NCBI GenBank assembly: GCA_963205525.1
Contig: CAUJJP010000092.1
Location: forward strand, 1-18,231
Source of the DNA: Pseudomonadota bacterium
GTDB lineage: Bacteria; Pseudomonadota; Gammaproteobacteria; Burkholderiales; Burkholderiaceae
Length of the DNA stretch: 18,231 nt
Reading direction: 5' to 3'
How positions within the stretch are numbered: the first letter of the stretch is position 1; every line of letters starts with the position of its first letter. The translations under genes were made by a program, and so were the position numbers. A model generated the notes under the pieces. It worked only from the letters and a program-made list of their open reading frames with translations. It did no database searches and was not told where the DNA came from. Positions 1 to 12,327 of this stretch are shown piece by piece.

Positions 1-81
1 CCGCACCCGACGCGTCCGCGTTCTATCGCCTGCTGGTGACGACCCTGGAGCCGGCGCTCGGCGCCAGCGAGCACGGCCTGA

Positions 82-2451: not shown

Positions 2452-3681
2452 ATGCAGGTCTACGAAGTCGGCGGCGCGGTGCGCGACGCGCTGCTCGGGC
2501 TGCCGGCGGGAGACCGCGACTGGGTGGTCGTCGGCGCCACGCCACAGCAGATGCTGGACGCCGGCTACACGCCGGTCGGCAAGGACTTCCCGGTCTTCCT
2601 GCATCCGCAGACACGCGAGGAGTACGCGCTCGCGCGCACCGAGCGCAAGAGCGCACCCGGCTACCACGGCTTCGTTTTCCAGGCCGCGCCGGACGTGACC
2701 CTGGAGCAGGACCTGGCGCGTCGCGACCTGACGATCAACGCCATCGCGCGGGCCGAGGACGGCACCCTGATCGACCCCTACGGCGGCCGGCGCGACATCG
2801 CCGCGCGCGTGCTGCGCCACGTCTCGCCGGCTTTTGCCGAAGACCCGGTACGGCTGCTGCGGGTGGCGCGCTTTGCCGCCAGGCTGCCCGACTTCAGCAT
2901 CGCCGACGAAACCATGGTGCTGCTGCGCCGTCTGGTGGACGAAGGCGAGGTCGACGCCCTGGTGCCCGAGCGCGTCTGGCAGGAGTTCGCACGCGGCCTG
3001 ATGGCGCAGCGCCCCGGCCGCATGCTGGAGGTGCTGCGCCGCTGCGGCGCGCTGGCGCGGCTGCTGCCCGAACTGGACCGGCTGTGGGGCGTGCCGCAGC
3101 GCGCCGAGCACCACCCGGAGGTCGACACCGGCGCCCACCTGCTGCTGGTGCTGGACCTGGCGGCACGGCTGCAGCAGCCGCTCGCGGTGCGCTGGGCGCT
3201 GCTGTGCCACGACCTCGGCAAGGGCACGACACCGACCGATCTGCTGCCGCGCCACCTGGGCCACGAGCAGCGCAGCGTGGCGCTGGCGCACGCCATCGGC
3301 GAGCGGCTGCGCGTGCCCTCTGACTGCCGCGAGCTGGCCGAGGTGGTCGCGCGCGAGCACGGCCACATCCACGCCAGCGCCGGCCTGGGCGCGGCGGCGC
3401 TGCTGCGCCTGCTGGAGCGCTGCGACGCGCTGCGCCGGCCCGAGCGCTTCGCCCTCGTGCTGCAGGCCTGCGAGTGCGACGCCCGCGGGCGCGGCGGCAT
3501 GGCCGACCAACCCTACCCGCAGCGCGCACGCCTGAGCCGGGCGCTGGCCCTGGTGCAGGCGGTGGACGGCGCGGCGGTGGCGCAGGCGGCGATGGCGCAG
3601 GGCGCGCGCGGCCCGGCGGTCGGGCGCGCGCTGCAGACGGCGCGCGAAGCGGCGCTGGCCGCACTGGCTGCCACGCCCTGA
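2452..3681 (+). CDS. cca: Multifunctional CCA-adding enzyme (tRNA nucleotidyltransferase / phosphatase / phosphodiesterase)
   Basis: This enzyme adds and repairs the 3'-CCA of tRNA without a nucleic acid template. The 409-residue length matches the HD-domain-bearing class II enzymes of E. coli type (about 412). [10 protein letters not shown] at 7-16 and the metal-binding pair D21/D23 in GDRDWVV form the nucleotidyltransferase core. [10 protein letters not shown] and [14 protein letters not shown] are the nucleobase- and tRNA-contacting segments of the neck. CHDLGKG carries the HD pair of the phosphohydrolase domain found in gamma- and betaproteobacterial enzymes. The start codon lies 23 nt downstream of the palindromic element. 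No strong Shine-Dalgarno is seen (only a GGCAGGG-like stretch), so expression may depend on the structured leader. It is convergent with the DUF2905 gene. Confidence 0.95.
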
Positions 3682-3704
3682 GCGCCGGCCCTGAGCGCCA
3701 GCCC
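3679..3704 (+). repeat. Two 13-bp tandem units starting at the cca stop codon
   Basis: Starting with the cca stop, TGAGCGCCGGCCC (3679-3691) is followed directly by TGAGCGCCAGCCC (3692-3704), a 12/13 match. The duplication places a second TGA 13 nt downstream, in a different frame. The next bases (TGCCTGCACGCC) look like a decayed third unit. Confidence 0.7.
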
Positions 3705-3728
3705 TGCCTGCACGCCGGGCGAGCGCCC

Positions 3729-3783
3729 GGAAGGTGCCCGGAAGGGGCGGGGAAGGCGCGGGGAAGGCGCGGGGAAGGGCCCC
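3729..3783. repeat. 11-bp tandem array (GGAAG spaced every 11 bp) in the cca / DUF2905 convergent gap
   Basis: GGAAG occurs at 3729, 3740, 3751, 3762 and 3773, exactly 11 bp apart. The units are GGAAGGTGCCC, GGAAGGGGCGG and GGAAGGCGCGG (the last one twice, at 3751 and 3762). The array ends in a GC hairpin (3769-3774 with 3780-3785, GCGGGG/CCCCGC). That hairpin could help end transcription from either side, but there is no T tract. Together with the 13-bp repeat it makes up most of the 109-bp gap. Confidence 0.8.
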
Positions 3784-6358: not shown

Positions 6359-7296
6359 TGTCCAGCGACCCGCGCAAGCAGGCCTTCGAGGACCGCAAGC
6401 TCGTCAAGCGCCTGTACCGCCAGGTCGGGCAGGCGATCGTCGACTACCGCATGATCGAGGCCGGCGACAAGGTCATGGTCTGCCTGTCCGGCGGCAAGGA
6501 CAGCCACGCACTGCTGGACCTGCTGATCGGCCTGCGCGCGCGTGCGCCGGTGCCCTTCGAGCTGGTGGCGGTGAACCTGGACCAGAAGCAGCCCGGCTTC
6601 CCGGCCGAGGTGCTGCCCGCCTACCTGAAGCGAACAGGTGTGCCCTTCCACATCGAGAACCAGGACACCTACAGCATCGTCAAGCGCCTGGTGCCCGAGG
6701 GCCAGACCATGTGCAGCCTGTGCTCGCGCCTGCGCCGCGGCATCCTGTACCGGGTGGCGGGCGAGCTGGGGGCGACCAAGATCGCCCTCGGTCACCACCG
6801 CGACGACATCGTCGTCACCCTCTTGATGAGCATGTTCTTCGGCGGCCGCATGAAGAGCATGCCGCCCAAGCTGGTGAGCGACGACGGCCGCAACGTCGTC
6901 ATCCGCCCGCTGGCCTACGTGGCGGAGACCGACATCGAGCGCTTCGCGGCGCTGCGCGAGTTCCCCATCATTCCCTGCTCGCTGTGCGGCAACCAGCTCA
7001 ACCTGCAGCGCGTGCAGGTGCGCGCCATGCTGCGTGAATGGGAGCGCCAGTACCCCGGTCGCACCGACAACATGTTGCGCGCGATGTGCACCGTCGTGCC
7101 CTCGCACCTGGCGGACCGGAAACTCTATCCCTTCGAGACCATCCAACCCACCGGCGTGGCCGACCCGCAGGGCGACCGCGCCTTCGACCCCGACGACGAG
7201 CCCGGCACGGCGGCCCCCGAGTCCTCGCCCGAGGCGCTGCGCTGGGCCGGCGACGAGGCCCACGAAGCCACTGAAACCCAGGAGGGCAGACCATGA
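6358..7296 (+). CDS. ttcA: tRNA 2-thiocytidine(32) synthetase
   Basis: TtcA thiolates C32 of certain tRNAs using ATP, a cysteine-derived sulfur and a [4Fe-4S] cluster. SGGKDS at 44-49 is the PP-loop ATP-binding motif. C119 and C122 ([12 protein letters not shown]) and C207/C210 ([10 protein letters not shown]) include the cluster ligands. [21 protein letters not shown] is family-typical. The core ends near residue 265. The remaining tail, rich in Asp, Glu, Pro and Ala, is presumably disordered, as in many betaproteobacterial homologues. A strong Shine-Dalgarno (AAGGAAGGA, 6344-6352) lies inside the end of folB. The stop overlaps the next start as ATGA. Its place in a folate operon looks like conserved neighbourhood rather than pathway logic. 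Confidence 0.95.
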
Positions 7297-7886
7297 GACG
7301 CTGGATCGCCGCGGCCCTGGCTACGCTCCTGCTGGCTGCGCTCGGCGGCTGCGCGGTGCTCAACACCGTCTACGCCGACCTCTCGACCTGGGGCGACTGG
7401 CCGGCGGGCCGCAGCGGCGGCAGCTACGCCTTCGACCGCCTGCCCTCGCAGCAGAGCGACCCGCAGGCCGCGGATCGGCTCGAGGCGGCGGCGCGCCCGG
7501 CGCTGGAGAAGGCCGGCCTGCGCCCCGTCGCGGCGGGCGAGAGGCCCGATTTGCTGGTGCAGCTGGCGCTGCGCACCACGCGCAGCGCCTTCGACCCCTG
7601 GGACGACCCGCTGTGGTGGCGCGGCGGCTTCGGCCACTACCGCCTCGGCTGGGGCGGTCCGATGTGGGCGCTGGGCGCGCGCTGGGATTCGCCGCGCTAC
7701 GAGCGCCAGGTGGCGCTGCTGCTGCGCGACGCCGCCAGCGGCAAGCCGCTGTTCGAGGCGCGCGCCGCCAACGAAGGCAGCACCGGCGCCAGCGACGCCG
7801 TGCTGCAGGCGCTGTTCCAGGCCACGCTGATCGACTTCCCGCGCCACGGAAGCAACCCGCGCACGGTGCGCATCGCGCTGCCTTGA
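7293..7886 (+). CDS. DUF4136 family lipoprotein
   Basis: A 197-residue protein. Its signal peptide [20 protein letters not shown] ends in a lipobox (LGGC, C20), so it is predicted to be lipid-anchored in the envelope. The mature part carries DUF4136 features: a YAFDRLP strand near the start, [20 protein letters not shown] (family-type variable-copy helix), [14 protein letters not shown], a Trp/Gly-rich central loop ([20 protein letters not shown]) and a C-terminal [13 protein letters not shown] strand. Members occur widely as envelope lipoproteins with no settled function. A perfect Shine-Dalgarno (AGGAGGG, 7280-7286) lies within ttcA, and the ATGA overlap couples it to ttcA. It is the last gene of the plus-strand operon and is followed by the TGA repeat. 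Confidence 0.85.
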
Positions 7887-7916
7887 ACCTGCGCTGAACC
7901 TGCGTTGAAGCCGCGG
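7884..7916 (+). repeat. Three 11-bp units starting at the DUF4136 stop codon
   Basis: TGAACCTGCGC (7884-7894), TGAACCTGCGT (7895-7905) and the diverged TGAAGCCGCGG (7906-7916) follow each other with no spacer. The first unit contains the gene's own stop. The 11-nt step puts the three TGAs in three different reading frames. The first unit differs at one base from the first unit after glmU (TGAACCCGCGC). Confidence 0.8.
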
Positions 7917-7943: not shown

Positions 7944-8814
7944 TCAATCCGCCGCCACCAACGCCAGCGCGCGCAAGTCCTCCTCCCAGCCCGCCAGGCG
8001 CTGGCGCAGCTGCTGGCGCTGGGCGGCGCTGGCGCTCGCGTGCAGGCGCGCCAGGGTCTCGCAGTTGTGGCTGCGCCAGCGCGCCTGCAGCACCGCCACC
8101 TGCGCATCGGCCGGCTGCAGCAGGGTCTGCAAGGCCAGTTGCAGGGTGCCCAGCCGGGCCGTGGCGTCGGCCTGGGCGTGCGCGCGCCGCAGCTCGGCCA
8201 GGAAGCGCTGCTGGCGCCGCTCGCGGTCGGCGAGCCAGGCGGCAGCGTCCATCGGCGATGCCGTCAGCCGCTGCCCCAGCAGGCTGCGCTGGGCCTCGCT
8301 CAGCGTGCCGTAGACCTGCTCGGCACGCTCGACCGCGTGCTCCAGCGCCGCCGCCGCACGCGCGCGGACATCGGCCGGCGCGCGCTCGCGCCGCTCGTCC
8401 GCGAGCCGGCTCGCCAGCTCGGCCGCCAGCCGGTCCAGCTGCGCCGGGCGCAGCGCGGGCAGCCAGTCGGCCGCTGCCGGCAGGCCCTGCTGCAGCATCG
8501 TGGCCCAGCGCTCGCGCAGCACGCCATCCCAGCGGCAGACCTCGTCGGCGCCCACCTCGCCCGCGGCGCGGTCGCGCCAGCCGGCAAGCCAGCGCGCATC
8601 CTCCGCCAGGCGCGTGCTGCGGTGCCAGGCGAACCACTGGCCGAGCCGCGCGCGCGCGTCGGCCTCCTGCACGCTGTCCAGGTCCAGGTAGCCGTCCAGC
8701 CACCAGACCACGAGCGCGGGGCCGTTGGCATAGCTCAGGCGCAGCAGGCTGCAGGCGCTGATGGCAGCGAGCGCGATGCCGATAATCAGCGCTTTGACGG
8801 TGGAAGACAGACGC

Positions 8815-8816: not shown

Positions 8817-10179
<1,363 letters not shown>

Positions 10180-10182
<3 letters not shown>

Positions 10183-10284
10183 ACCCGCGCTGATCCGGCA
10201 CTGACCCGGCGCTGATCCGGCGCTGATCAGCCGTCCATCGGGCGCTGAACGAACGCTGATCGGGTGCTGATCGGGTGCTGATCA
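10180..10284 (+). repeat. Ten-unit 11-bp array of TGA-headed repeats filling the glmU / GGDEF-EAL convergent gap
   Basis: Beginning with the glmU stop, TGA occurs at 10180, 10191, 10202, 10213, 10224, 10246, 10257, 10268 and 10279. All fit a strict 11-bp step, and only the unit at 10235 lacks TGA. Units include TGAACCCGCGC, TGATCCGGCGC and TGATCGGGTGC. The last TGA lies in the palindrome TGATCA, whose other half is the stop codon of the convergent GGDEF-EAL gene. On the minus strand only two TGAs occur, so the stop-codon bias belongs to the glmU side. There is no coding potential and no hairpin with a T tract. Confidence 0.9.
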
Positions 10285-12327
10285 GAGCGCCAGCGCCGCC
10301 AGCGGCTGCGGCGGCGCGATCAATCGGCCCTGCATCACCGGGCAGCCGTGGGCGATCAGCCAGTCGCGCTGGGCCGCGGTCTCCACGCCCTCGGCGATCA
10401 CTTCGATCGCCAGCGCTTGCGCCAGCTGCAGCAGGGCCAGCGCCACCGCCTGCGCGACGGCGTCGCCCGGCAGCTCGGTGACGAAGCCGCGGTCCAGCTT
10501 CAGCCGGTCCAGCGGCAGCCGGCGCAGACAGGCCAGCGATCCGTGGCCGGCGCCGAAGTCGTCGATCGCGATCCGCACGCCCAGGGCGCGCAGCCGGCGC
10601 AGGGTCTGCAGCGCGCTGCCGAGGTCGTCGCTCAGCAGCTGCTCGGTGAGTTCGAGCTCCAGCAGCGCGCCCGCCACGCCGGCCTCCTGCAAGGCCTGCT
10701 GGACGCTGGCGACGAAGTCCGGCGCCTGGAACTCGGCGGCCGAGACGTGGACCAGCACCGGCACCGGCGGCCGGCCGGCGCGCTGCCAGCCGCGCGCCGC
10801 GTCCAGGGCCCGCCGCAGGGCGATGCGGCCGATCGGCCCCATCAGGCGCTGCGCCTGCGCAACGGCGAGGAACTGCCCCGGCTCGACCAGGCCCAGCTTG
10901 GGGTCGCGCCAGCGCAGCAAGGCCTCGACCGCGCACAGCTCGCCGGCCGGAAGCCGGCGCACCGGCTGGAAGTGCAGCTCGAAACCGTCGGCGCGCAAGG
11001 CCTGGGCGAGCCGGCTCTCGGTCTGCAGGTCGTCCCAGGCGTGCTGCGCCATGCCGGGCTCGAAGAAGCGCACCGCCGCGCGACCGGTCAGCTTGGCGGC
11101 GTACATCGCGGTGTCGGCGTGCTGCAGCAAGGTGTCGGCGTCGCCGCCGTCGCCAGGGTGGCAGGCGACACCGATCGAGGGCGTGACCGAGATCGCGACG
11201 CCGCCGATCTCGACCTCGGCCTGCACCGCCGCCAGCAGGCGCTGCGCCAGCGCCGCCACCTCGTCGTGCGACCGCGCGCTGCCGAGCAGGACCAGGAACT
11301 CGTCGCCGCCGAAGCGCGCCACCTCGTCGCCGGCACCCAGCGCGGCGCCTATGCGCTGCGCCACCGTGCACAGCAGGCGGTCGCCGGCCAGGTGGCCGAG
11401 CGAGTCATTGACGCGCTTGAAGTGGTCCAGGTCGACGAACAGCAGCGCCAGTCCCTCGGCCCCGGGAGCCGCCAGCCGCTGCTGCAGCCGCTGCATGAAG
11501 CTGCTGCGGTTGGCCAGGCCGGTGAGCGCGTCGTGCTCGGCCAGGTGGCGGATGCGCGCCTGCGCCGCGAGCTGGGCGCGCTGGTCGCGCAACAGCGCCA
11601 TGCGCAGCCGCACGCCGTCGCGCTCCAGGGTGCGGACCCGGCACTCGACCGGGATGCGGCTGCCGTCGCGGTGCAGCACCACGCTGTCGTAGCTGATCTC
11701 GGCGCCCGAGAGCATCACCTCGCGCGCGCGCGCCTGCTGGTCGGGGGCGATGAAGTCCAGCGTCGGCCGCCCGCGCATGTCCTCCAGGCGCAGGCCCAGC
11801 AGCGCCAGCAGCGGCGGGTTGGCGTCGGTGATGAAGCCGTCGCGGTGGAACACGATGCCCTCGGCGCTCGCGTGCATGAAGCGCGCCAGACGCTCCTCGC
11901 TCTCGCGCAGCGCACGCTCGGCCTCGCGGTGGCGCGTGATGTCGGCGATGAGCACGAAGGCGCCTATCGCCCGCCCGCCCTGCAGGTGCGGCACCAGGTT
12001 GACCTCGATCACGCGCCGGCTGCCATCGGCGTCCTGCAGCTCGCGCTCGTAGGCGGCGCTGCGATGTTCTTCCAGCGCGATGCGCACGTGGGGCTGGATC
12101 TGTGCGTTCGCCTGCTCACCGATGATGTCCACCACCTGCCGGCCCAGCAGCTCCGAGGCCGACGCGTGGCCGAAGATGCGCGCATACCCTTCGTTGGCGA
12201 ACAGGCAACGGTTGTCGGCACTCTCGAAGTAAGCGATCGCTACCGGAACATTGTCGGCCAGCAGCCGCATTCTCTCCAGTTCCGCCTGAACCACAGCGAG
12301 ATCCGGCAGGCCGCCACGCGAGTTCAT
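10282..12327 (-). CDS. PAS-PAS-GGDEF-EAL cyclic-di-GMP signalling protein
   Basis: A 681-residue cytosolic protein with no signal or membrane segments. PAS 1 is at about 20-130 (NRCLFANEGYARIFG; DGSRRVIEVNLVPHLQGGRA) and PAS 2 at about 145-250. The GGDEF domain (about 260-425) has DLDHFKRVND at 299-308 and intact GGDEF at 340-344. The product-inhibition I-site is GAGD at 331-334 instead of RxxD. The EAL domain (about 435-680) keeps E468 of EALLRW, E559 of ELTE, D589/D590, K610, E646 and Q666. H527 replaces the metal-binding Asn of the usual VNxS. It may make c-di-GMP without feedback inhibition, with phosphodiesterase activity doubtful. The start overlaps the glycosylase stop (ATGA); an upstream in-frame extension is only antisense or shadow reading of other genes. 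Confidence 0.9.
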   Translation of the reverse strand: MNSRGGLPDLAVVQAELERMRLLADNVPVAIAYFESADNRCLFANEGYARIFGHASASELLGRQVVDIIGEQANAQIQPHVRIALEEHRSAAYERELQDADGSRRVIEVNLVPHLQGGRAIGAFVLIADITRHREAERALRESEERLARFMHASAEGIVFHRDGFITDANPPLLALLGLRLEDMRGRPTLDFIAPDQQARAREVMLSGAEISYDSVVLHRDGSRIPVECRVRTLERDGVRLRMALLRDQRAQLAAQARIRHLAEHDALTGLANRSSFMQRLQQRLAAPGAEGLALLFVDLDHFKRVNDSLGHLAGDRLLCTVAQRIGAALGAGDEVARFGGDEFLVLLGSARSHDEVAALAQRLLAAVQAEVEIGGVAISVTPSIGVACHPGDGGDADTLLQHADTAMYAAKLTGRAAVRFFEPGMAQHAWDDLQTESRLAQALRADGFELHFQPVRRLPAGELCAVEALLRWRDPKLGLVEPGQFLAVAQAQRLMGPIGRIALRRALDAARGWQRAGRPPVPVLVHVSAAEFQAPDFVASVQQALQEAGVAGALLELELTEQLLSDDLGSALQTLRRLRALGVRIAIDDFGAGHGSLACLRRLPLDRLKLDRGFVTELPGDAVAQAVALALLQLAQALAIEVIAEGVETAAQRDWLIAHGCPVMQGRLIAPPQPLAALAL

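Follow-up and report, generated by a model that had tools for sequence, protein, structure and literature searches.

The window, by which we mean the whole 18,231-nucleotide stretch of DNA that was analysed, contains glmU and a gene convergent to it, and the whole gap between the two is occupied by an array of 11-bp units (Table 1). Genes were called with a simple codon-usage script and not a standard gene finder, so that some arrays described below as intergenic may be located in uncalled genes; the start given for glmU is that of our gene call, and an upstream ATG at 8761 is possible.

Table 1. Genes and repeats of the window discussed in the text.
Feature	Position	Strand	Remarks
glmU (NTP transferase + hexapeptide repeats)	8821..10182	+	TGA stop 10180-10182 is the first array unit
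Convergent gene (PAS + GGDEF + EAL domains)	10282..12327	-	Stop is TCA 10282-10284, inside the array
11-bp tandem array	10179..10289	+	Ten units from 10180; TGA heads nine
CTGATCAG palindrome	10223..10230	.	At unit n = 4
TGATCA	10279..10284	.	Last + strand array TGA, then TCA stop of the convergent gene
Second stop-overlapping 11-bp repeat	7884..7909	+	TGA at 7884, 7895, 7906
13-bp repeat	3670..3706	+	TGA at 3679, 3692; overlaps the stop of gene 2452-3681
TGA-free 11-bp repeat, CGGGGAAGGCG type	3723..3782	+	Another convergent gap; in-window control

Reading the sequence directly, we found TGA at 10180 + 11n for n = 0-4 and 6-9, with CCA in its place at n = 5. This confirms the nine regularly spaced TGAs of the original prediction, as well as its statement that the array runs from the stop codon of glmU to a TGATCA holding that of the convergent gene. 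The units n = 0-4 read TGAACCCGCGC, TGATCCGGCAC, TGACCCGGCGC, TGATCCGGCGC and TGATCAGCCGT, and the units n = 5-9 read CCATCGGGCGC, TGAACGAACGC, TGATCGGGTGC, TGATCGGGTGC and TGATCAGAGCG, two adjacent units being identical. Run on the window, TRF reported 10179-10283 with a period of 11, 9.5 copies and 75% matches, and the lag-11 identity within the array was 0.72, compared with 0.16-0.22 at lags 9, 10 and 12. Nine in-register TGAs were reached in none of 20,000 dinucleotide shuffles of the array stretch; the shuffle maximum was four in register, both in these 20,000 at lag 11 and in 3,000 scored at any lag from 6 to 15. The CTGATCAG octamer occurs again at 10278-10285, 55 bp (five units) from the first, and the two 55-bp halves of the array have 36 of 55 bases in common.

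Two columns were invariant (10/10), namely the A of TGA and unit position 5 (a C), followed by the T and G of TGA (9/10), positions 7, 10 and 11 (8/10) and the remaining positions (4-7/10). The earlier claim that TGA and its spacing are kept while the flanks vary was overstated, as one column outside TGA is at 10/10 and three more reach 8/10. The + strand of the array carries nine TGAs and the - strand two (as TCA), as had been noted; this bias follows from the sequence of the unit, TCA being present only where TGATCA is. The predicted rotation of successive TGAs through the frames was also borne out. Downstream of the glmU stop the first stop in each frame lies at +11, +22 and +33 nt, no frame stays open for more than 36 bases counted from the first base of the glmU stop codon, and the next stop in the frame of glmU itself is 11 codons on. 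Rfam gave no match in the window up to E = 1, and a plasmid collection gave none to 10150-10320.

Two further repeats of the window overlap stop codons, the 11-bp one following a DUF4136 gene (7293-7886). The 11-bp habit is not tied to TGA, since the window also holds a TGA-free 11-bp array.

We compared the glmU gap with that of related genomes, as the original prediction had proposed. The GlmU comparison set consisted of the best 80 relatives, nearly all labelled Burkholderiales or a Burkholderiales genus. The best match among 399 family genomes was G345 (83% identity); G456 reached 80%, and the genomes G001, G012, G013 and G015 were placed in the genus of G345. The array was absent from the glmU 3' gap in all 20 relatives examined (loci from the search of the G345 genus). 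In G345 (L251) and G456 (L298) the glmU TGA abuts TCA to give the palindrome TGATCA, and the gene convergent to glmU is related to the uracil-DNA-glycosylase (UDG)-family gene of the window, with no EAL gene between. An EAL-type neighbour of glmU was present at five loci (L252, L303, L304, L310 and L313), where the gaps likewise lacked the array. This absence from the relatives read, including the five with an EAL-type neighbour, makes the lineage of the window the most likely place of origin. Growth of the array out of a TGATCA junction would be a guess. Across 81 glmU loci there was no lag-11 excess of TGA after TGA stops (9/626 at +11), and the TGA rate peaked at +22 (16/559).

Short tandem arrays proved common in the DNA sampled from relatives (1.2 Mb of G013 and 0.4 Mb each of G014, G004 and G126, together with the window and 80 glmU loci). 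In G013 (the first 0.4 Mb of its sample), G014 and G004, at 0.4 Mb each, TRF counted 67, 84 and 69 intergenic arrays, respectively. Among the arrays listed with periods 9-13 in these three genomes, 62 of 89 units contained neither TGA nor TCA and 27 contained either. Arrays over TAA or TAG stops exist (L041, TAAGGAGT; G126, TAGCCCGAG), as do stop-overlapping arrays with periods of 9 and 12, which cannot rotate frames. Two-unit duplications, expressed per 10,000 anchors, numbered 31 at the stop, 37-38 at +1..10, 56 at +10..20, 53 at +20..40 and 48 at +40..80, with 27-38 upstream of starts and 25 in coding DNA. Duplications were thus not concentrated at stop codons, where they were rarer than anywhere from +10 to +80.

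In G049 (L239, L263) an array spans, like that of glmU, the entire distance from one stop codon to the other, here separating a ribulose-phosphate-epimerase-family gene from a methyltransferase-domain gene. G418 (98% identity over the query) shares all six units of this array, whereas G420, at 93% identity, has two and is 32 bp shorter. The minus-strand gene of G420 lacks the first array stop of G049, is four codons longer and ends at a later array TGA. The original prediction had held that a copy number varying among strains, with TGA lost at random, would point to a neutral local repeat; the variation seen here, with one genome per species searched, is between species at this one comparable locus.

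Retention of the stop triplet was assessed with a masked-column test, in which the stop columns were hidden during array detection and their identity was afterwards compared with that of other masked triples. Including the window, this gave 19 arrays of period 11 (3.8 in shuffles), with an identity of 141/216 for stop columns and 758/1140 for the others. As five of the 19 were the window's own, the repeat test left the window out (leave-three-out; 1,998 3' regions from 2.4 Mb of four genomes plus 80 loci). It yielded 14 arrays of period 11 with a stop-column identity of 75/123, against 390/618 for other masked triples, and for periods 7-16 together 979/1842 against 5134/8202, the stop columns being lower at every period. 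In this pooled test stop triplets were therefore not conserved above other columns, although the test is diluted because many of its arrays begin downstream of the stop. When the first junction was also required to match, the pooled values for periods 7-16 were 429/840 for stop columns and 1920/3126 for others. Only in the strict period-11 subset, which comprises nine arrays, were stop columns better kept (39/54 versus 214/354); this was seen at no other period from 7 to 16. The first-junction test over periods 8-15 found the stop triple kept in 13/154 cases and other triples in 78/344, and over periods 11-14 first-junction retention was 7/13 for the stop triple versus 42/118 for others.

Downstream TGAs were also sorted by the likeness of their flanks. 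Pooled TGAs at +11 with matching two-sided flanks, which represent tandem duplications, numbered 13 where 2.3 were expected (p = 1.2e-6), while those with unlike flanks showed no excess (20 versus 18.9 expected). Likeness was scored on two sides because a one-sided version misfiled duplications starting upstream of the stop. This did not hold for G013 taken alone, which had raised numbers of TGAs with unlike flanks at +11 (10 versus 4.3, p = 0.013) and at +10 (14 versus 4.3); a dispersed element contributes 9 of all 17 G013 TGAs at +10. Conditioning retention on four bases to either side was given up, since flanks that match by chance dominate such a measure; it had the triple kept at lag 11 in 12/58 cases at a threshold of 6 and 3/14 at a threshold of 7, compared with 0.15 and 0.37 elsewhere. 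As a separate observation, TGA at +8 after TGA stops was raised in the pooled set with unlike flanks (36 versus 19.2, p = 0.0004), for which we found no explanation.

We then turned from 3' ends to whole genomes, counting runs of four TGAs at lag 11; in these counts overlapping matches in one array are counted several times. In a set of 16 genomes the pattern matched 98 times, in 14 of them (the AGT control 12 times, in 3); it was present in 101 of 150 family genomes (AGT in 16), and gave 136 matches in 32 of 41 genus genomes (AGT 14 in 6). Because AGT, which is TGA reversed, is rarer in intergenic DNA (frequency 0.0068 versus 0.0119), GAT, ATG and other lags were used as controls. In the same 41 genomes, fourfold GAT at lag 11 gave 46 matches in 12 genomes and ATG 26 in 11, and fourfold TGA gave 41 matches in 14 genomes at lag 10 and 67 in 12 at lag 13. 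TGA at lag 11 is the most widespread of these five patterns, which argues against a purely motif-blind account.

Stop overlap and conserved upstream sites account for part of this breadth. A called gene stop was included in 20 of 56 distinct lag-11 TGA chains (57 loci from the 16- and 41-genome searches). Some of the 56 are arrays away from called stops, and some chains have little in common except TGA, which gives them an operator-like look. In 2.4 Mb, intergenic lag-11 chains of at least three numbered 18 for TGA, 12 for GAT, 4 for ATG and 3 for AGT, with 1.0, 1.3, 1.1 and 0.2 expected from trinucleotide frequency, and a gene stop was included in 8 of all 22 TGA chains. Lag 8 was also prominent, with 18 intergenic chains of TGA and 17 of GAT in the same 2.4 Mb. 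The absence of a lag-11 excess after other genes had been named beforehand as an outcome that would speak for a neutral repeat; in relatives the excess is present.

Two groups of upstream sites were encountered in these searches. Four to six TGA-N8 direct repeats lie upstream of related HAMP-domain genes at L316, L317, L335, L337 and L108, in several species, and a HisKA domain was found in three of the five genes. Judging from the sequences, these repeats likely represent a conserved operator. A quadruple TGA(C/A) at lag 11 precedes Acetyltransf_5 (GNAT) genes at L241, L245, L246, L247, L249 and L250, six sites that come from 20 stretches chosen by eye in the 16- and 150-genome searches. We take these sites to resemble tandem PHO boxes, and the genes presumably resemble olsB.

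Taken together, these results make it highly probable that the glmU array is a short tandem repeat specific to its lineage, which originated when a segment spanning a stop codon was duplicated. An 11-bp segment including the TGA of glmU would have been duplicated successively, probably by slipped-strand mispairing or short-homology recombination. Since translation would still end at the first copy, duplication across a stop does not alter the protein; stop-overlapping arrays should therefore be tolerated at any period. The founding unit would have contained TGA, hence its recurrence at 11-bp intervals, and the three-frame rotation would be a by-product of the period. Point changes may then have diverged the units, with local duplication making neighbours alike, as in the TGATCGGGTGC pair. 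The stops in all three frames are on this account a side effect, and no selection for them was demonstrated. Expansion of a stop-containing segment was one of three readings offered by the original prediction. It is the one that gained support, from the intergenic arrays of relatives with and without stops and from the differing unit number at the comparable locus; the other two, a translational backstop and a phased protein site, did not gain it here. Related behaviour is on record: in the part of PMC4060949 available to us, tandem repeats of 6-11 bp are strongly over-represented in the intergenic DNA of a few prokaryotic species and longer loops are weakly repaired by mismatch repair, and the available part of PMC2799673 describes repeat-number change in a Burkholderia species, with slipped-strand mispairing and recombination as suggested sources.

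A translational backstop would mean that the array is kept to stop ribosomes passing or slipping at the TGA of glmU, in all three frames. The first downstream stops in the three frames, the wide distribution of lag-11 TGA chains in the genus and the better-kept stop columns of the nine strict period-11 arrays are consistent with this idea, as is the minus-strand gene of G420, which ends at another array TGA when the first is missing. We nevertheless regard it as quite unlikely, since with all periods taken together retention is lower for stop columns than for others, stops are not where duplications gather, and periods of 9 and 12, which leave the frame unrotated, occur over stops as well. The frame of glmU itself must wait 11 codons for its next stop, and none of the 20 glmU relatives read has the array. 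As far as its accessible text goes, the eubacterial survey PMC6764699 found no compelling evidence of selection for additional stops, reporting a paucity and not an enrichment. Some slight room for a functional reading is left by how widely lag-11 TGA occurs in the genus and by the nine strict arrays. One such reading, in which 3' ends of this Rubrivivax-like genus repeatedly grow "stop satellites" of ~11 bp that are at least partly kept as an all-frame stop reserve, is unlikely. If it were true, a primary stop that was lost or read through would be backed up by the next unit, for which the G049/G420 pair would leave room.

The other functional readings place the signal in DNA or RNA. A regulator or nucleoid protein could recognise direct repeats placed one DNA turn apart: a spacing of 11 bp corresponds to roughly one turn, and lag-11 TGA sites do precede GNAT-domain genes (six loci) and, in four to six copies, HAMP-domain genes (five loci) in relatives. 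Such a class therefore exists elsewhere, but at glmU the array is enclosed by the stop codons of two converging genes, a search of 9900-10560 gave no promoter-like site, and the array is neither present at the same place in the relatives read nor conserved at an orthologous upstream position, so that a helically phased site at glmU is very improbable. The convergent position would also suit a transcription terminator, either bidirectional or Rho-dependent, ending both genes, and a fold of 10165-10310 on the + strand gives a long, imperfect hairpin (-67.5 kcal/mol). The z-score of this fold is only -1.45, however (-0.22 for the - strand), the gap is without the intrinsic-terminator pattern of a stable stem followed by a T run, and C is not in excess over G (35 versus 38); we give this explanation hardly any credence. 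On the evidence, the array is an ordinary short tandem repeat overlapping a stop.

Of known systems, VNTR-like short intergenic repeats come closest, being head-to-tail short units of fixed period with diverged copies. As in such repeats, unit sequences differ between loci (the window contains a 13-bp array as well as a TGA-free 11-bp one). A difference in unit number between close species was seen at the one comparable locus (six versus two units at 93% identity), whereas at the glmU gap the 20 relatives read have no array whose units could be counted. Unlike VNTR-like repeats in general, the glmU array starts at a stop codon and consequently has a stop in nearly every unit. PHO-box/OmpR-family operators consist of direct repeats at 11-bp spacing upstream of genes. 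The array has this spacing in common with them but is located between converging stops, and the 20 relatives read lack it. Repeats of 11-12 nt overlapping stop codons may already have been described in bacteria, and for this reason we claim no priority, although a superficial search of the literature on stop-overlapping, intergenic or additional-stop repeats found no such arrays described. Additional (tandem) stops, treated in the portions available of PMC6764699 for bacteria and PMC1088959 for yeasts, likewise lie downstream of a primary stop. Those stops are in-frame and judged by selection, whereas the stops of the array are repeat-borne, occupy all frames and, in the pooled test, show no extra conservation.

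These results illustrate that a striking all-frame stop pattern can arise without selection for stops, as a tandem repeat overlapping a stop must multiply the stop. They advise caution before such arrays are taken for termination signals, a distinction for which masked-column retention offers a simple test. Were TGA retention to be found among strains, it would support fail-safe stops in bacteria, for which PMC6764699, in its accessible part, found no evidence.

A MITE-like element was also observed in the window at 2158-2431 and again on contig C5 of G013. It has inverted ends, AGCCTGTGAA (2163-2172) and TTCACAGGCT (2417-2426), and is flanked by direct repeats CTGAG (2158-2162 and 2427-2431), the left of which contains the TGA stop of a GST-like gene (1481-2161). 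Rfam gave no hit for the element. Its sequence TGAGAGCYTGTGAA was present in 16 of 41 genus genomes, with 31 occurrences in G013. A right partner lay within 500 bp in 16 of 40 copies, 12 of these 16 having a direct repeat of at least 4 bp. The frame running into the TGA of the element was open for 100 codons in 31 of 40 copies, and a second frame was often open too. A looser TGAGAGCYTGTGAA-like pattern gave 12 matches in 1.2 Mb of G013, one of them in coding DNA, and in 8 of the 11 non-coding matches the TGA of the element was a called gene stop. A preference for CTGAG at stops, or selection against insertions within genes, are possible reasons for this placement.
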